Assembly: GCA_017880775.1 (NCBI GenBank)
Contig: JADGRQ010000004.1
Location: forward strand, 1-64,000
DNA length: 64,000 nt
From: Burkholderiales bacterium
GTDB lineage: Bacteria; Pseudomonadota; Gammaproteobacteria; Burkholderiales; SG8-39
Direction of reading: 5' to 3'
Notes under the pieces: model-generated
What the model saw: the letters and a program-made list of their open reading frames with translations, nothing else
Databases searched by the model: none
What the model was told of the DNA's origin: nothing
Shown here: positions 46,976 to 54,781 of the stretch, piece by piece
How positions within the stretch are numbered: the stretch's first letter is position 1
Layout: each line of letters begins with the position of its first letter
Translations under genes and position numbers: made by a program

Positions 46976-47902
46976 TTACCCGGTCCGCACCGGATCGATC
47001 CGGTCGAGCGGGCTCTTTACCGCCCGCCCGCCGCGATTCAGTACGTGCGTGTAGACCATGGTGGTCGAAACATCCGAATGCCCGAGCAACTCCTGCACCG
47101 TGCGGATGTCGTAGCCGGACTGCAGGAGGTGCGTTGCGAACGAATGCCGCAGCGTGTGACAACTCACCGGCTTGATGATGCTCGCGACGCGCGTCGCGCG
47201 CTTGATCGCGCGACTCATCGTATCTGGGTAAACGTGGTGGCGTCGAATGACCCCCGAATCCAGATCGACCGAGCGGTTTTTCGACGGAAACAGGAACTGC
47301 CAGCCCCACTCGTATCCCGCGCGCGGATACTTGCGCGACAAGGCGTGAGGCAGCCAGACATCTCCGTAACCCTCCGCGAGGTCCCGCCGATGAAGCGTGC
47401 GCACCTTGCCGAGGTGGGCCTGAAGCGATTGCACCACGCTTTCAGGCAGCATCGTTACACGGTCCTTCGCCCCTTTGCCGTCGCGCACAAGCACCCGGCG
47501 ATATGCGAAGTCCACGTCCTTGACGCGAAGCTCCAGGCATTCCTGCAGGCGCAGGCCCGCGCCGTAGAGCAGACTCGCCATCATCCAGGTCACGCCTTCG
47601 AGCTGCTCGAGCACTGCCTTGTACAGAAACAGCAGCGCGGCGAGCGCCTGGTTCTGCGTCGCGGCCGCGACGTTGCGATCGGTAGCGAGCCAGCTGAGGA
47701 ACGCCGTCACCTCAGCTGCACCCAATTCGGCCGGATGGCGTTTGTTGTTATGAAGGATGAAATAGCGGATCCAGAACCAGTAAGTTTTCTCCGTCCGCCG
47801 ACTGTAATGACGCGAGCGGATCGCCGCGCGCACGCGGTCGATCAAACGGGGTGCAGGAGAGGCGTTTGAGGAACCTTGCGAGGAATCAGCGGGTTGTTCC
47901 AT
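46976..47902 (-). CDS. intI: Integron integrase IntI with an internal deletion
   Basis: A 308-residue tyrosine recombinase. All catalytic residues are visible: R118 (GAGLRLQE), H249 and R252 (CHTLRHSF), H275 (LLGHSDVS) and Y284 (TMVYTHV). The IntI-specific extra helix region [19 protein letters not shown] ... GVIRRHH distinguishes it from XerC/D. Against remembered IntI sequences, about 33 residues are missing between LYKAVLEQ (residue 100) and LEGVTW (residue 101), where family members have an LPW ... RLPVVLT stretch. Activity may be reduced or lost. It faces away from the cassette array, as is usual. Confidence 0.92.
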
Positions 47903-48113
47903 AAATAGCCGTTCATCGGAGTTACTGTATAGCCACCACTCCCTTGACGCGCTGATTTGAGGGCAGGTTGACGAAACGAACGCGGAGCATGACGATGTTC
48001 ATCAGCACTTTTGCTTATGATTGAGCGTTCGGCGTCACATAGCGGCAGCAGGTGATTCACTAGCGCCTTTTATTTCAGGTAAGGCAGTCGTATCTAAAAC
48101 GAAGGAGAAGACA
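47903..48113 (+). other. Integron platform: attI region and cassette promoter zone
   Basis: This stretch between intI and the first cassette gene should hold attI and the promoters. At 48083-48103 it reads GGCAGTCG then TATCTAAAACGAAGG, close to the class 1 attI1 end GGCAGTCGCCCTAAAACAAAGTTAG that I recall. The crossover GTTRRRY itself is not present, so the junction with the first cassette has been altered. GGCAGCAGGTG just before also echoes attI1. No promoter was identified with confidence. Confidence 0.45.
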
Positions 48114-48323
48114 ATGGGTGAATGGTCCGACTATTTCGAGGATTTCCCAGAAGAGAATCCAGCCAATTATGTAGGCAACCGTTTTGACCCGAAGGGCGCT
48201 GAAGCGCTCCGGACGCAGGCAGCCAAGGCCGCCCAAGAGCAGGCAAAGCTTGACGCGGAAATTGGCAGAATCATTCAAAAGCACAGCAATCCTGCGGCGC
48301 CGGGCAAGAAGCAAAGTGAGTAG
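48114..48323 (+). CDS. Cassette 1: small charged hypothetical protein
   Basis: A 69-residue hydrophilic protein starting MGEWSDYFEDFPEENPANYVG, with an Ala/Gln/Glu helix and a Lys-rich end. GAAGGAGAAGACA precedes the ATG, a strong site. It fills the first cassette position and is followed by an attC within nine bases. No family is known. Confidence 0.7.
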   Translation: MGEWSDYFEDFPEENPANYVGNRFDPKGAEALRTQAAKAAQEQAKLDAEIGRIIQKHSNPAAPGKKQSE

Positions 48324-48332
48324 CGGAGTGCC

Positions 48333-48419
48333 GCCCAACTCTATGTCGAACGGACGGGCCTTCAGCGGCGTGCCGTGTGCGAGCAGCTCCCTGGCCCGCC
48401 GTTCACAACGACGTTAGAA
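48333..48419 (+). other. attC site of cassette 1
   Basis: Left core GCCCAAC (48333-48339) and right core GTTAGAA (48413-48419). Arms GAACGGACGGGCC and GGCCCGCCGTTC pair with one unpaired A. The same arms occur at the 5.6 kb site. Length 87 bases. Confidence 0.88.
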
Positions 48420-48425
48420 CGCAAA

Positions 48426-48905
48426 ATGACCGTGTCGCCGTTTGAACACTTGCAAGTTCCCCGCGAGTTGGTTTGCGAATTTTTCGGGGTGTTTTCTCGT
48501 TTTGAATTTGCGCTCAAAGAATCAAAGTTCTTTCGCTCAAGCCACAACTCCCGCGCAGCACCAGACTGGCGGCTTTTCGGAGAAAAGTTCGGTAAATTTC
48601 TTCCGGCCGAAATCACGAATAGCGAAGCCATTCAGTACTTATTGAAGGAGCCACCTTTCGTTCAAGAAGTGGAAAACGGCTCAATTCATTGGAAACCTGC
48701 CCCGCTTCGTGGTGACACAGATGGCGAACGAGTTATTGATGCTATTCAACGTGTGCGGAATAATCTTTTTCACGGTGGGAAGCATTCGCCTCATTCTCCG
48801 CAGGGTCGAGACGAAAAACTTGTTCGAGGCGCACTTGCTGTCCTTGAAGCATGCATCGGATTGAACAAGGACCTGCAATTTTGTTATGAGAATTCTAAAT
48901 CCTGA
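48426..48905 (+). CDS. Cassette 2, first gene: HEPN-motif protein
   Basis: A 159-residue protein beginning seven bases after the attC core. RNNLFHGGKH (R111 to H116) is the R-x4-H motif of HEPN domains, many of which are metal-independent RNases in toxin-antitoxin and defence systems. The helical segments VIDAIQRV before and LVRGALAVLEACIGLNKDL after fit the HEPN bundle. GC content is well below that of the core genes. No nucleotidyltransferase partner is adjacent. The motif is short, so the call is probable, not certain. Confidence 0.6.
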   Translation: MTVSPFEHLQVPRELVCEFFGVFSRFEFALKESKFFRSSHNSRAAPDWRLFGEKFGKFLPAEITNSEAIQYLLKEPPFVQEVENGSIHWKPAPLRGDTDGERVIDAIQRVRNNLFHGGKHSPHSPQGRDEKLVRGALAVLEACIGLNKDLQFCYENSKS

Positions 48906-49261
48906 TGATCACGAGTACGACACATTTTCTTACGACAGTCGCCCACTACTTCACTGTTCTGGCGCGCGCTCTCTGGCTTGTGGGGTGCATTACTGCGGCG
49001 ATGCCCGTACAAGCACGTGACAGCTCGGAAGACCATCGCAACGTCCTAATAAATTCACGGGGTGATGTGGCTGCGGTAATGCTTTGCGACCCGAAGGTGC
49101 CGAACAAATGTTTAATTGTTGAAGTAAACTCGGGTAACCCTTTACTTATGGCGCTTCGCGAATCTGACGACAGATATTTCGTAGTGAATTACAACACTGG
49201 CGAACCTGTAGGAAGAATAGTTCGCGTCGGTACAACAGTTTGGCGTCTGGTTGCGCAGTAA
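48905..49261 (+). CDS. Cassette 2, second gene: exported small protein
   Basis: A 118-residue protein whose ATG overlaps the stop of the HEPN-motif gene (TGATG). A signal peptide (VLARALWLVGCITAAMPVQA) precedes a mature part of about 80 residues with VMLCDPKVPNKCLIVEV. Its two cysteines may pair in the periplasm. No family recognised. There is no attC between it and the HEPN gene, so the two travel together as one cassette. Confidence 0.65.
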   Translation: MITSTTHFLTTVAHYFTVLARALWLVGCITAAMPVQARDSSEDHRNVLINSRGDVAAVMLCDPKVPNKCLIVEVNSGNPLLMALRESDDRYFVVNYNTGEPVGRIVRVGTTVWRLVAQ

Positions 49262-49268
49262 CCATGCG

Positions 49269-49325
49269 TTCTAACTTTAAATGCAACGGACCGCCTTCGG
49301 CGGCCGTTGATTATTGACGTTATGC
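49269..49325 (+). other. attC site of cassette 2
   Basis: Left core TTCTAAC and right core GTTATGC frame a compact 57-base site. The hairpin AACGGACCGCC-TTCG-GGCGGCCGTT has one unpaired A. This is the canonical short attC form. Confidence 0.88.
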
Positions 49326-49489
49326 CGCATGTGACGCCGCCAGGCAGTGAGCGCGATCGGCCATTTGCGCTCATGCGGCACGGTCCTCAAATCCCGATTG
49401 ATCGTCACCCTACGCCTACCTGCCGCTAACTCGCTGGCCAGCTTTCCTTGGCGTAAACGCGCATACTGCGCGCCCATCAAGGGAGGGGA
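49326..49489 (+). other. 5' region of cassette 3
   Basis: A 164-base leader, unusually long for a cassette, between the attC core and the start codon. It contains a small dyad GCCGCATG ... CATGCGGC. It could carry the cassette's own promoter. No gene is seen. Confidence 0.3.
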
Positions 49490-50470
49490 ATGAACAATCG
49501 TCGGAAACTGGCTATTGCGCTTGGCGCGGCTGCTCTTGCAGCGCCTTTCGCGTCCTTCGCTCAGCAGCAGGCCAAAATCCGGCGAATCGGTTTTCTGGCT
49601 GTCGGCTCGGCTTCCTTTATGGCGAGCCGTGCAGAGTTGCTGCGGCTGGGCCTGCGCGACTTGGGGCACATCGAAGGCAGGAACATTGTCTTTGAGTCGC
49701 GATACGCTGACGGCAAGACTGAGCGGCTTGCCGGACTCGCGGCGGAGCTGGTTCGCCTTCAAGTTGATGCCCTTGTGACCCACACGACACTGGGAGTCCA
49801 GGCCGCCATGCAGGCAAGCTCGACCATTCCCATTGTCATTGCGGCGACCGCCGACCCCGTCGTCACGGGCCTCGTCGCCAGTCTCGCTCGGCCGGGCGGT
49901 AACGTTACCGGGTCGGCAATCTTTACTCCCGAAATCATGGCCAAACGGATCGAATTACTCAAGGAGGTCGCACCGCGCATCAAGCGTGTAGCCGCGTTCC
50001 TGCGACCAAGTGCTTCCAGTATTTCAATACTTCAGGCGATGGAGACTGCAGCGAAGTCATTAAAGGTCGAGCTGCAAAAATTCGAAGCACCGAGTGTTAG
50101 CGAACTGAATGACAGTTTTTCGGCGATGTCTCGAAACGGCGTTAACGGACTCGTCGTTCAAGATGACCCGGAAATTATCGCCAACTCCAAAGCCATTGCC
50201 GGGTTCGCGGAAAAGTATCGCATCCCCTCGGCAGGAAACTCGGAATTCGCGGAAGCCGGCAATATGCTCGGCTTTGGAGTGAACATTCCAGAAATGTTTC
50301 GCCGGGCGGCATACTTCGTGGACAAAATCCTCAAGGGCGTAAAACCAGCCGATCTGCCGGTCGAGCAGCCTACCAAGTTCGAGTTGGTGATCAACATGAA
50401 AACCAGCAAGGCATTGGGCCTCAAGTTCCCCCACGCGCTCCTAGTCAGAGCGGACAAAGTAATCGAGTAA
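49490..50470 (+). CDS. Cassette 3: ABC transporter substrate-binding protein (TrpX/DUF534 type)
   Basis: A 326-residue periplasmic binding protein with signal peptide MNNRRKLAIALGAAALAAPFASFA. IRRIGFLAVGSA starts the mature fold, LRLGLRDLGHIEGRNIVFESR is the family signature, and DPVVTGLVASLARPGGNVTG follows. Relatives bind amino acids or aromatic compounds. AGGGAGGGG precedes the ATG. No permease or ATPase is nearby, so it is an orphan receptor in cassette form. Confidence 0.82.
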   Translation: MNNRRKLAIALGAAALAAPFASFAQQQAKIRRIGFLAVGSASFMASRAELLRLGLRDLGHIEGRNIVFESRYADGKTERLAGLAAELVRLQVDALVTHTTLGVQAAMQASSTIPIVIAATADPVVTGLVASLARPGGNVTGSAIFTPEIMAKRIELLKEVAPRIKRVAAFLRPSASSISILQAMETAAKSLKVELQKFEAPSVSELNDSFSAMSRNGVNGLVVQDDPEIIANSKAIAGFAEKYRIPSAGNSEFAEAGNMLGFGVNIPEMFRRAAYFVDKILKGVKPADLPVEQPTKFELVINMKTSKALGLKFPHALLVRADKVIE

Positions 50471-50501
50471 GGATGCGAACTGCAGCGATATTGCGGCATA
50501 A

Positions 50502-52464
50502 TCGGGTAAGGGCCGGCTGCTAACCGGCCCTCCCCACACCACCCGGCATGCGGGTCCGCACCGGGCGGTTCACGTACAGGAAGCACGCGCCGTACTCAGG
50601 CGTATCCGTGAGCTTTCATCCAAAGATCACGGACACTGAACAAGCCCTGTTCCTTCAGCCATTGGTTGGTCATCCCGGCCTGGGTCGCCAGCGTCTTTGA
50701 CAGTCGCCAGTAGCTCTTGCTGCTGATGGCCGTCAGAATCGCATGGCGCTTTCCAATGCCGAGCGCAAGCAGATGCCGCACCTTCGTGCGCACCAGCCGC
50801 CACTGCTTCCAGTAGCACAGACGCACACGCCGGCGCAGCCACTCATCGATCTCGGGTACCGGACGGTAATACTCCGAGATGCCGAAGTACCCCATCCAGC
50901 CCCGTAGATACTGCGCGAGCTTGTTGAACCGGTAGCGCATCGAGACACCCCAGCTTCGTCCGGTGAATCTGCGAACGTTGTGCTTGAAGTCCTCGAACGC
51001 GCGCGCCGACCAGCGCAGCTTGCCCTTGCGGAACGTGAATCCCAGAAAGACGCACTGATCGATCGGCGCCACCCGGCTCTTCTGCTCATTGACCTGAAGC
51101 TTGAGCCTCTTGGCAAGATACCCCGTGAGGCTCGCCTTCACCCGCTCGCCGGCCCGTGGCGTCTTGACCAGAACCAGCACGTCGTCGGCGTAGCGCGCAA
51201 AGCGATGCCCCCGTCGTTCCAGTTCCCGGTCCAGATCGTCCAGCAGGATGTTGGCCAGCAGCGGCGAGAGCGGTCCGCCTTGCGGCGTGCCGATCTCGCT
51301 GGGCTCGAAGGTTTCCCCGACCACGACGCCCGCTCTCAGGTACCGACCGAGCAGCGCGAGCAACCGCGTGTCACCTACCTTCCTGGCCACGCGGGCCATC
51401 AGGATGTCGTGCTGGACGTTGTCGAAGAACTTCGCCAAATCCAGATCGACGGCAATGCGGTAGCCGGCCTTGATACTGGCCTGCACCTGTCGGAGCGCTC
51501 CGTGAGCGCCGCGTCGGGGACGGAAACCGAAACTCGACTCGGAGAATCCCGCATCGAAGATCGGCCCCATCACTTGCGCGATGGCCTGCTGGATCAACCG
51601 GTCAACGACCGTCGGTATCCCCAGCAGTCGCTCGCCCCCGTCCGGTTTCGGGATACTCACCCGTCGCACCGGTTGTGGGCAATACGTGCCATCGAGCAAG
51701 GCTTGTCGGATCGCCGGCCAGTGGCCGCGCGCGTAGGCCGGGAAGTCCTCGATGCGCATCCCGTCAATGCCGGGCGCACCTCGATTGCTCCTCACCTGCC
51801 GCCACGCGCGCCGCAGATTGTCCGCGGCAACGATCCCTTCCATGAGTACATCGTGCAAGGCTGGCTGCATGACCCTACGCCGATCCTCGGCTCCCCCGGT
51901 CGGGTTCGTCACCAAAGTCGAGTCGGTCACCGCTCCTCCTTGTCTGTTCGTGTTCGGCCCTTTGCCGTGACCCCTTCTTGCGCGGGGGCGCCGGCTCATA
52001 CGGCCTCTGCTGACTTCTGTCCGGTCACGCCACGCATTGCTGCGCAGCGCGCTGCGCCGCCTTGCTCCGTTCGCTGCCTCGTTCGCTCGCGTGGATCGGC
52101 AGCATCTCCACACGCCTGGGCCTTGTTCAACCAGCGGACCCGGCTGGTTCATTACGGTGCAAGGAAAGCGACGCCGCCGCGCCGGTCAGATCTCCCCGAA
52201 TAAGAACATGCGCCTTCGGTGCACAACCGCCGCATTTACCCTGCCCCTGGACACCTCGGGCTTCGTCATCTGGTGCTGACTCGCCCCGGGACTGAGCCTT
52301 CTATGCAATTTCTGTTCGTTGGCTCGCACCTTTGCCTTCCAGCTTCCTTCAGACAAATCCTCGCGGACTTGCCCTTGCCGTCGGCTAGTGGTTATCCTGA
52401 TTCCATGGCGTCCTCCCACAGGGGACTTCCACCCCATCAGATCATGCCCATGTCGGGCGTACAC
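50502..52464 (-). mobile_element. Group IIC-attC intron inserted in an attC site
   Basis: A 1963-base intron on the strand opposite to the cassette genes. The 5' end reads GTGTACGCCCG (from 52464), the RNA domain I region follows with TGGGGTGGAAGTCCCC and GCGAGGATTTGTCTGAAGG, the reverse transcriptase gene comes next, and domain V is the hairpin GAACCGCCCGGTGCGG ... CCGCATGCCGGGTGG near 50575-50530. Joining 50501 to 52465 gives GGCATAACCGGCAGCG, which restores an attC left core GCATAAC. This fixes both ends. The class is known to target attC bottom strands. Confidence 0.85.
50596..51930 (-). CDS. ltrA: Group II intron reverse transcriptase/maturase
   Basis: A 444-residue intron-encoded protein. 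RT blocks: FRPRRGAHGALRQVQ, DLAKFFDNVQHDIL, GTPQGGPLSPLLANILLDD, and RYADDVLVLV with the catalytic YADD. The maturase domain follows (LAQYLRGWMGYFG). No C-terminal HNH endonuclease is present, as expected for class C. The GTG at 51930 has AAGGAGGA ahead of it and starts VTDSTLVTNP; a longer frame to 52152 lacks a start signal. It appears intact, so the intron may still move. Confidence 0.93.
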   Translation of the reverse strand: MTDSTLVTNPTGGAEDRRRVMQPALHDVLMEGIVAADNLRRAWRQVRSNRGAPGIDGMRIEDFPAYARGHWPAIRQALLDGTYCPQPVRRVSIPKPDGGERLLGIPTVVDRLIQQAIAQVMGPIFDAGFSESSFGFRPRRGAHGALRQVQASIKAGYRIAVDLDLAKFFDNVQHDILMARVARKVGDTRLLALLGRYLRAGVVVGETFEPSEIGTPQGGPLSPLLANILLDDLDRELERRGHRFARYADDVLVLVKTPRAGERVKASLTGYLAKRLKLQVNEQKSRVAPIDQCVFLGFTFRKGKLRWSARAFEDFKHNVRRFTGRSWGVSMRYRFNKLAQYLRGWMGYFGISEYYRPVPEIDEWLRRRVRLCYWKQWRLVRTKVRHLLALGIGKRHAILTAISSKSYWRLSKTLATQAGMTNQWLKEQGLFSVRDLWMKAHGYA

Positions 52465-52544
52465 CCGGCAGCGCAGCGGACGCGCGCGAGCGGGGGTAGT
52501 TTGCAACGATCGGCGCGCGCGCGCCGCTGGCTTCCACGTTGGAC
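52465..52544 (+). other. attC site of cassette 3, right part (split by the intron)
   Basis: This is the larger part of an attC whose left core lies at 50495-50501, across the intron. The right core is GTTGGAC (52538-52544). CAGCGCAGCGGACGCGCGCG pairs in part with CGCGCGCGCCGCTGG. The start of this part, GGCAGCGCAGCGGACG, resembles the attC at 53303. Confidence 0.75.
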
Positions 52545-52599
52545 ATCTGACGAGTGGTCGCCCCGAACCAAATAACCGCAGGGCTCTTGGGGGAGGAAA

Positions 52600-52896
52600 A
52601 TGATGGCTGCATACGTGATTTTCGATGTCGATATTCATGATGCCGACCGGTATCAGGATTTCATGAAACAGGTGAAGCCTGCGCTCGACGCGGCCGGTGC
52701 GCGCTATCTCGCTCGCGGCGGGGCGCACAAAGTCTACGAGGGCGATTGGAGTCCGAGACGAATCGTGCTCCTGGAATTCCCTTCGATCGCAGCGTGGGAG
52801 TCCTTCTACTACGGGCCTGTGTACCAAGGTGTCAAGTCAATTAGAGACGAATGCAGTTCCGCTCGCCTTGTCAGTGTGGACGGTCTTTCTGCGTGA
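52600..52896 (+). CDS. Cassette 4, first gene: DUF1330 family protein
   Basis: A 98-residue DUF1330 protein (AAYVIFDVDIHDADRYQDFM, GARYLARGGAHKVYEGD, RRIVLLEFPSIAAWESFY). GGGGGAGGAAA precedes two consecutive ATG codons. Related to the gene at 30.4 kb but not close. Its stop overlaps the next GTG start. Confidence 0.85.
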   Translation: MMAAYVIFDVDIHDADRYQDFMKQVKPALDAAGARYLARGGAHKVYEGDWSPRRIVLLEFPSIAAWESFYYGPVYQGVKSIRDECSSARLVSVDGLSA

Positions 52897-53114
52897 CCCA
52901 TCCTTGCAGGACATTTCGGAAGCAGACGCCCATCCTAGATGAATGGATCGAACGGACCATCCGTTCCCCGCTGAAAGAGCCGGTTCAGGCAGACGGCCGC
53001 ATACGCCGATGGGCGCAGATCCCGGAAGCCGAGAACCGCCACCTCCGGGTCGTGCTTCTCGCGGACCGCGAAACGGTCCACAATGCGTTCGTCGATCGAA
53101 GGTTTGCGCCATGA
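52893..53114 (+). CDS. Cassette 4, second gene: DUF4258-like small protein
   Basis: A 73-residue protein read from a GTG at 52893 that overlaps the DUF1330 stop (GTGA). EWIERTIRSPLKEPVQADGR, then IRRWAQIPEAENRHLRVVLL, then TVHNAFVDRRF follow the DUF4258 pattern, usually placed before a DUF2283 gene. Its stop overlaps the DUF2283 ATG. The pair is reminiscent of toxin-antitoxin layouts, but activity has not been shown here. Confidence 0.65.
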   Translation: MTHPCRTFRKQTPILDEWIERTIRSPLKEPVQADGRIRRWAQIPEAENRHLRVVLLADRETVHNAFVDRRFAP

Positions 53115-53308
53115 GAATTCGGTACTTCAAAGACACCGACACACTGCTCATCGAGTTCAAAGAAGCTCCCGTCGCCGAAACCCGCGACCTCGATGAAAAC
53201 ACGGTGCTGGACATGGATGCTCAAGGCAATGTCTGCGCCATCACCGTTGAGCACGCCTCCCAGCGTGCTGGCATCCCCGCGTTCTCGTACGAGCAGGTTG
53301 CGGCTTAA
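53111..53308 (+). CDS. Cassette 4, third gene: DUF2283 protein
   Basis: A 65-residue DUF2283 protein (MRIRYFKDTDTLLIEFKEAP, ETRDLDENTVLDMDAQGNVCAITVEHAS). Its ATG overlaps the previous stop (ATGA). Its stop codon TAA lies inside the attC left core GCTTAAC. DUF2283 proteins pair with DUF4258 proteins in many genomes. Confidence 0.85.
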   Translation: MRIRYFKDTDTLLIEFKEAPVAETRDLDENTVLDMDAQGNVCAITVEHASQRAGIPAFSYEQVAA

Positions 53309-53392
53309 CAGCGCAGCCCACCCGGACGGGCGCGCGAGCCTCGTGCCTCGCAACGGTCACCGGGCGCGCGCCGGTGGCTGCAAACGTTATGC
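53303..53392 (+). other. attC site of cassette 4
   Basis: Left core GCTTAAC (53303-53309), right core GTTATGC (53386-53392). GCAGCCCACCCGG pairs with CCGGTGGCTGC around a large central stem with GGGCGCGCG and CGGGCGCGCGCCGG. Length 90 bases. Confidence 0.85.
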
Positions 53393-53410
53393 CTCATGGA
53401 GATGTCGTGC

Positions 53411-53824
53411 ATGAAGCCACGAATAACTGTTATCACGGTATGCGTCGATGATCTGGAAAAGTCACTCAAGTTCTACCGCGACGGTCTTGGGTTGAAGACA
53501 GAAGGCATCATCGGAAAGGAATTCGAGCATGGCGCAGTCGCCTTTTTTGATCTGCAGTCCGAACTCAAGCTCGCCATTTGGCCCCGCAAGAGTCTTGCCC
53601 ATGATTCCGGGCTTCCTCTAATGGCGCCAAGTGCCACCGAACTTTCCCTTGGGCATAACGTTTCATCCAAGGCCGAAGTTGATGCGGTCATGGCGCAGGC
53701 CAAGAGCGCAGGTGCAGTCATCGTGAAGCCTGCACAAGATACGTTTTGGGGAGGCTATGCAGGCTATTTTCAAGATCCCGATCAGCATCTGTGGGAGGTC
53801 GTTTGGAACCCACAGTGGGCTTGA
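53411..53824 (+). CDS. Cassette 5: glyoxalase/VOC family protein
   Basis: A 137-residue vicinal-oxygen-chelate protein. ITVITVCVDDLEKSLKFYRDGLG opens the first beta-alpha-beta unit, and GYAGYFQDPDQHLWEVVWNP closes the second with its metal-type Glu. Such proteins act as dioxygenases, isomerases or drug-binding resistance proteins. The ATG at 53411 has GGAG nine bases upstream; an ATG at 53396 is possible. Confidence 0.85.
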   Translation: MKPRITVITVCVDDLEKSLKFYRDGLGLKTEGIIGKEFEHGAVAFFDLQSELKLAIWPRKSLAHDSGLPLMAPSATELSLGHNVSSKAEVDAVMAQAKSAGAVIVKPAQDTFWGGYAGYFQDPDQHLWEVVWNPQWA

Positions 53825-53834
53825 GCAGAATGAG

Positions 53835-53898
53835 GCATAACAATTCGCTGCAGGCGCGACGGCCCTGGCGGGCCGCGGCCTGAGCTCAAACGTTGAGG
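53835..53898 (+). other. attC site of cassette 5
   Basis: Left core GCATAAC (53835-53841), right core GTTGAGG (53892-53898). GGCCCTGGCGGGCC forms the tip, and CTGCAGGCGC with GCGGCCTGAG the lower stem. Length 64 bases. Confidence 0.82.
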
Positions 53899-54183: not shown

Positions 54184-54497
54184 ATGGGGCACGTGAACAC
54201 TTTTCTGCGCAGCGAGGAGTTTGACGCTTGGCTCTCCGGCTTGAAGGACAAAATTGGGCGCGCCCGAGCGTCCATCGCATCCGCTCTGCCGAACATGGAA
54301 ATTTTGGCGACTGCGAACTTGTAGGCAATGGAGTGTCCGAAATGCGCGTCCATGTTGGTCCAGGCTACCGAGCCTATTTCACCCGGCGCGCAGAGGCGGT
54401 CTATCTGCTTCTCTTGGGCGGCGACAAGTCCTCGCAGAAGCGTGACATCAAACGCGCCATTGAAATGGCACCGGCTCTGGACAGGAGTGAACCATGA
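54184..54497 (+). pseudogene. Cassette 6: HigB/RelE-type toxin with frameshift
   Basis: Two frames make one addiction-module killer protein. The first reads FLRSEEFDAWLSGLKDKIGRAR from the ATG at 54184, and the second HRIRSAEHGNFGDCELVG then GVSEMRVHVGPGYRAYFTRR and LLLGGDKSSQKRDIKRAIEMA. The shift is by one base near 54265-54275. The ribosome-dependent RNase fold is interrupted, so the toxin should be inactive. The end overlaps the antitoxin start by ATGA. Confidence 0.75.
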
Positions 54498-54781
54498 CCA
54501 AAATTGCCCCTTTCGATGCTGCCGACTCCCTTGATAATGAGGAAACCATTGCGGAATATATAACCGCCGCACTGGAAGACTCCAATCCAGACGTATTTTT
54601 GACCGCCGTGCGTGATGTTGCCCGCGCCCGTGGTATGGCCCAACTCGCAAAAGACGCCGGATTGGGGCGGGAAAGCCTATACAAAGCATTAGCGCCTGGC
54701 GCCAAACCACGCTATGACACGATGCTTAAGCTGCTTCACGCTTTGGGAGTAAAGCTTTCGGCTTCACCCGTGCGCTCATGA
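54494..54781 (+). CDS. Cassette 6: HigA-like antitoxin
   Basis: A 95-residue helix-turn-helix protein of the addiction-module antidote group. AEYITAALEDSNPDVFLTAV precedes VARARGMAQLAKDAGLGRESLYKAL (the HTH) and KPRYDTMLKLLHALGVKLSA. It would bind the toxin and the promoter. It is intact although its toxin partner is frameshifted. Confidence 0.88.
   Translation: MTKIAPFDAADSLDNEETIAEYITAALEDSNPDVFLTAVRDVARARGMAQLAKDAGLGRESLYKALAPGAKPRYDTMLKLLHALGVKLSASPVRS

Follow-up and report, generated by a model that had tools for sequence, protein, structure and literature searches.

How should one read two short, overlapping genes of low GC content, the first of which encodes a protein with the motif RNNLFHGG and the second a small protein with a hydrophobic N-terminus? 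The preliminary description of the DNA in which they lie, a stretch of 64,000 nucleotides from a Burkholderiales contig (hereafter the window), saw in them a coupled cassette that joins an RNase of the HEPN type, perhaps a toxin, to an exported protein of no known family. Here, we ask in what kind of element the genes reside, whether the first product (ORF1) is a HEPN protein, and whether the second (ORF2) belongs with it.

The Genes and Their Integron Setting

The coordinates, the motif, and the overlap were given correctly in the preliminary description (Table 1). ORF1 opens with an ATG at 48426 and closes with a TGA at 48903-48905, RNNLFHGG forms its residues 111-118, and the ATG of ORF2 (48905-48907) shares the letters TGATG with that stop codon; the ORF2 stop ends at 49261. 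The GC content is 47.5% in ORF1, 50.1% in ORF2, and 48.7% in the two-gene block, compared with 64.5% for the 64-kb window. ORF2 is probably a real gene, because an open coupled frame of its length arises by chance in only ~0.7% of cases (Markov dinucleotide simulations), its codon-position GC (0.585/0.432/0.500) is close to the ORF1 values, and 8 bp separate its stop from the attC2 that follows.

Table 1. Features of the integron region, in window coordinates
Feature	Position	Strand	Description or basis
intI, integron integrase	46976..47902	-	308 aa; NCBIfam TIGR02249, 411.6 bits (cut-off 265); Pfam Phage_integrase and SAM_4
Probable attI crossover, GTTCGGC	48027..48033	+	Start of cassette 1; inferred from position between intI and the first cassette
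Cassette 1	48028..48413	+	Bounded by presumed attI and attC1
attC1	48333..48419	+	87 nt; R'' GCCCAAC ... R' GTTAGAA; pattern and hairpin fold
Cassette 2 (ORF1 and ORF2)	48414..49319	+	906 bp; 48.7% GC; attC at each end
ORF1	48426..48905	+	159 aa; predicted HEPN-type RNase; family PHROG 19013
RNNLFHGGK codons (ORF1 residues 111-119)	48756..48782	+	Motif invariant in 83 aligned members
ORF2	48905..49261	+	118 aa; N-terminal hydrophobic segment, predicted beta-rich C-terminal part; orphan
attC2	49269..49325	+	57 nt; R'' TTCTAAC ... R' GTTATGC; R''/R' hairpin search
Cassette 3	49320..50500	+	ABC transporter substrate-binding protein gene, 49490-50470; PF04392, 5.8e-47
Further attC	53303..53392	+	R'' GCTTAAC ... 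R' GTTATGC; R''/R' hairpin search
Further attC	53835..53898	+	R'' GCATAAC ... R' GTTGAGG; R''/R' hairpin search

ORF1 and ORF2 together are one integron gene cassette, the second in its array. What the preliminary description missed were the attC sites at both ends and the adjacent integron integrase gene, which is divergent from the cassettes and lies just upstream of the array. The attC sites were sought as R''...R' boxes plus a symmetric hairpin, a search that at other loci gives a background of about one candidate on each strand for every 10 kb. In attC1, 76% of positions fall within a symmetric stem when folded as a hairpin, and 6 of the 7 positions at the presumed attI are complementary to its R'' box. 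Cassette 2, which lies ~0.4 kb from the presumed attI, carries an R'' box of its own (TTCTAAC) that exactly complements the R' at the cassette start (GTTAGAA), as would be expected of an excisable cassette that was once circular. Capture as a cassette explains the low GC content of the block, which had rightly been read as a mark of recent acquisition.

The ORF of cassette 1 (48114-48323) encodes an acidic protein of 69-70 aa without a family match, and the ABC transporter gene of cassette 3 is large and unusual for a cassette. The attC of cassette 3 appears to be split by a group II intron (window 50490-52480, minus strand) with a reverse transcriptase/maturase gene (50596-52152) and Rfam intron domains. 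The intron is oriented opposite to the cassettes and apparently sits inside the R'' end of that attC, remnants of which are seen as GCATAA near 50497 and the remainder near 52470-52550; its placement fits the group IIC-attC class, its ends being approximate. Further cassettes at 52549-53898 hold a DUF1330-like ORF (52600-52896), a DUF2283-like ORF that ends in the attC at 53303-53392, and a VOC/glyoxalase-like gene (53396-53824) followed by the attC at 53835-53898, all named by eye. By eye, there is a toxin-antitoxin pair near the end of the array (54330-54720), made up of a small ORF and, after it, a gene for a HigA-like protein that resembles addiction-module antidotes.

A Widespread Family and its Invariant Residues

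ORF1 has no match among the Pfam, NCBIfam, or PADLOC models. It does match PHROG 19013 (3.1e-21), a family of no assigned function, as do all 83 members of our alignment; ORF1 is thus a member of that group, for which the motif, the structural model, and the cassette setting are described here. When one genome per species was scanned with seeds, 254 encoding stretches came up, of which 80 were retained; their sources were many bacterial phyla and two metagenome-assembled genomes (MAGs) of archaea. Relatives were also present on 27 virus contigs and 36 plasmids. The family is therefore widespread, in hundreds of genomes, plasmids, and prophages, and it bears no family name. Within the phylum, a profile search found it in 3 of 398 genomes, the source genome among them.

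Across the 83 aligned members E27, K31, W48, and R111-K119 (RNNLFHGGK) are invariant, and P77, Q80, and R128 are nearly so. It is important to remember that the seeds of the scan included NNLFHGGK, and conservation was therefore rechecked on hits found without motif seeding: RNNL[FY]HG[GA]K is kept in all five plasmid proteins and both genome proteins recovered in that way.

Is ORF1 a HEPN Protein?

According to Anantharaman et al. (PMC3710099), HEPN domains are recognised by an Rx4-6H motif where helix 3 ends, ahead of helix 4 of a four-helix bundle; the arginine is followed by a polar residue, and an upstream Ex3[KR] motif contributes a conserved acidic residue. R111, N112, and H116 of ORF1 provide an Rx4H motif with a polar residue after the arginine, and E27-K31 an Ex3K motif, although in the AF2 model the latter is part of the first long helix instead of the second. 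This model (mean pLDDT 92.8) places R111-H116 at the end of a helix (99-115) that is followed by a loop and another helix (128-144), and it also contains two beta-hairpins that are absent from most HEPN bundles.

Searches with profiles of the family gave no convincing match. HEPN models are over-represented among the weak, sub-threshold matches: HEPN_Apea, Abi_C, and HEPN_Swt1 are among 12 Pfam families, the weak PADLOC matches include CARF-HEPN models and an RT-associated HEPN, and the top PDB matches are CRISPR-associated chains with RNSVAHGGR (E 0.18). No Pfam model convincingly matches any of the 83 members, and comparison of the family with an alignment of eight Abi_C proteins by hhalign gave a probability of 0.5%. 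Foldseek and VIA-align list no HEPN chain for the ORF1 model, an absence that in the case of VIA-align excludes nothing.

We conclude that ORF1 probably belongs to the HEPN superfamily. The preliminary description had proposed this from the motif, and the invariant residues and their placement in the model lend it weight; membership stays at probable because none of the known HEPN proteins was matched in the profile and fold searches. The same lack of profile-profile and structural matches, together with the beta-hairpins and the strong invariance of W48 and of the GGK that follows H116, neither of them a HEPN hallmark, would suit a different small helical protein, either an enzyme or a binding protein, in which the RNNLFHGGK loop only resembles Rx4H. 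We consider such a protein rather unlikely, given that the motif-level hallmarks all occur jointly, in a model with a helix order like that of HEPN proteins, and that HEPN models recur among the weak matches.

Taken as a putative HEPN protein, ORF1 can be compared with several known systems. Vpc_cass2 (PDB 3JRT), a HEPN protein from an integron cassette (PMC3710099, PMC3548836), is likewise small, of the HEPN type, provided with an Rx4-6H motif, and carried on a cassette, but no sequence similarity to ORF1 was found: a search of PDB chains with the 83-member profile did not list 3JRT up to E 10. The Abi-type HEPN proteins AbiJ, AbiF, AbiV, and Abi_C mostly share the Rx4H-type motif, whereas ORF1 has no separate sensor domain. 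Tha, the tail-activated HEPN system of Staphylococcus aureus prophages (PMC11087260), is a phage-borne HEPN RNase whose RNxxxH motif (RNSIMH) recalls that of the putative ORF1 RNase; however, Tha-1 has 301 aa with an additional N-terminal region and is controlled by its own inhibitor, Ith, whereas ORF1 is a single domain of 159 aa. No PADLOC model of a known anti-phage system matches ORF1 or its family.

What is ORF2?

ORF2 has no Pfam or NCBIfam match, and we found no relative of it in plasmids, phages, IMG/VR, or samples of whole genomes from the class, phylum, and close kin (369, 398, and 199, partly overlapping), nor beside any of 106 loci of the ORF1 family. Four weak matches (L114-L117) were rejected as short, frame-broken, antisense to known genes, or limited to the signal segment; another (L126, E 4e-4) shows 25% identity inside a frame of 481 aa. 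A single-sequence model of low confidence (pLDDT 73) predicts a helix at the N-terminus and a small domain rich in beta structure, and Foldseek on that model returned only generic beta-propeller pieces.

By eye, the hydrophobic segment is followed by V-Q-A|R at residues 35-38, which makes the signal peptide of the preliminary description plausible; the long N-region with an arginine at position 21 is also compatible with a membrane anchor. An exported protein in a cassette is not odd in itself, as signal-peptide proteins are frequent there (11.6% in Xanthomonas; PMC12444791).

Do the Genes Form a Pair?

The idea that the two genes act as one system fares less well, because relatives of ORF1 occur as single-gene cassettes and as solo plasmid genes, and no relative of ORF2 lies near any of them. 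In Chromohalobacter (L052) a single-gene cassette lies between attC sites at 2142-2215 (R' GTTAGAA) and 2710-2793 (R'' TTCTAAC), with 4 nt between the stop of the ORF1 relative and the second of these. A Thiobacillus MAG (L057; GTTATGC/GCATAAC) and Aliidiomarina shirensis (L042) share this layout, as does Azoarcus (L082) with one less perfect box; in a Burkholderiales MAG (L054) the downstream attC lies 4 nt past the stop. A cassette was counted only where an attC lay within ~10 nt of the stop codon. A looser signature, namely complementary R'/R'' boxes anywhere within 700 nt, was dropped since it is seen at 56 of 530 random positions as well as in 11 of 106 members. A Klebsiella plasmid of 5.5 kb carries the ORF1 relative as a solo gene, and on small Enterobacteriaceae plasmids it has no coupled exported partner. 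Relatives of the first gene thus stand apart from the second in other genomes, the outcome that the preliminary description had itself named as a refutation of the pair.

Nor did the neighbourhoods reveal another constant companion. Clusters of neighbours (positions -3 to +3 at 106 loci) comprised only near-identical prophages, close strains, and generic families. Direct co-directional neighbours include Abi_C (L008, L027), AbiJ_NTD4 (L014), a nucleotidyltransferase-HEPN fusion (L007), and Ymh (L074), and a PADLOC scan of near neighbours showed no clear excess of defence genes over those 3.5-5 kb away at the same loci, for which reason adjacent genes are cited here by name only. The ORF1-ORF2 pairing is not conserved; the partner varies and may be absent.

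In enterobacterial prophages (L087, L099-L103, L108) the ORF1 relative sits amid tail or baseplate genes and overlaps a gene for a small exported protein. We considered the Escherichia coli phage arrangement as a parallel to ORF1-ORF2 and rejected it: the exported gene is present in 20 phage records and the ORF1 relative in five, and only four near-identical records hold both. The adjacency is best regarded as incidental, because the exported gene is joined by an ORF1 relative in so few of the phages that carry it.

These observations bear on two rival readings. In the first, ORF2 would be a membrane or periplasmic sensor or tether that controls the RNase, the two proteins forming a two-component system. 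The TGATG coupling, the shared cassette, an open frame unlikely to arise by chance, and the overlap with an exported-protein gene in E. coli phages (L087, L100-L102) speak for it, whereas the single-gene cassettes, the absence of ORF2 kin near 106 family members, the incidental nature of the phage adjacency, and the lack of detectable sequence similarity between ORF2 and the phage exported protein speak against it; we regard it as improbable.

Toxin-antitoxin cassettes are common in integrons, and two small overlapping genes in such a place invite the second reading, with ORF2 as antitoxin. This is very improbable in our judgement: a secreted or membrane-anchored ORF2 could not easily neutralise a cytoplasmic RNase, solo ORF1 relatives occur without any antitoxin, and no nucleotidyltransferase-type antitoxin adjoins ORF1. 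An adjacent minimal nucleotidyltransferase, as in HEPN-MNT systems, was not found here, ORF2 having neither a Pfam nor an NCBIfam match.

Proposed Role and Significance

On balance, and with moderate confidence, we favour a standalone HEPN-type RNase with a role in defence or dormancy, which an integron has mobilised on a cassette together with ORF2 as a coupled, putatively exported passenger. We infer that ORF1 is probably a homodimer; R111 and H116 would cut RNA without metal, with N112, E27, and K31 in support. The enzyme would remain inactive until triggered, for example by phage infection, and would then cleave cellular RNA, most likely as a defence or dormancy effector. ORF2 would be translated by coupling and then exported or anchored in the membrane, as a lineage-specific passenger and not an antitoxin.

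A setting in defence is suggested by the Abi, HEPN, and Ymh neighbours of some relatives, by the copies in prophages, and by the role of integrons as carriers of anti-phage cassettes. A paper of 2013 proposed that the HEPN domains of integron cassettes act as dormancy RNases (PMC3710099), and two of 2025 showed that integrons carry anti-phage cassettes (Darracq 2025; Kieffer 2025; both cited in PMC12409362). Since other bacteria carry the first gene without the second, cassette 2 is a useful addition to a known kind, not a new paired system. The bolder proposal, that ORF1 stands for a large unnamed family of single-domain HEPN-type anti-phage RNases of integrons, small plasmids, and prophages, here joined by a membrane or periplasmic partner that tunes its activation, seems to us a long shot.

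HEPN proteins are already familiar from integrons and anti-phage cassettes, but this family, which recurs across many phyla and mobile elements, is covered by none of the Pfam, NCBIfam, or PADLOC models; one derived from the 83-member alignment would let annotation tools detect it. The family also offers an easy test of whether a HEPN domain alone can be a triggered defence RNase, as the protein has 159 residues and an invariant signature and its gene is naturally solo on plasmids of 5 kb.

One further arrangement is seen in Roseovarius and Gemmobacter (L025, L026, L034). There, the ORF1 relative shares 1 nt with the gene upstream of it, which matches Piwi weakly and encodes 525 aa in Roseovarius and is cut by the contig end in Gemmobacter; this is possibly an Argonaute-HEPN defence operon.
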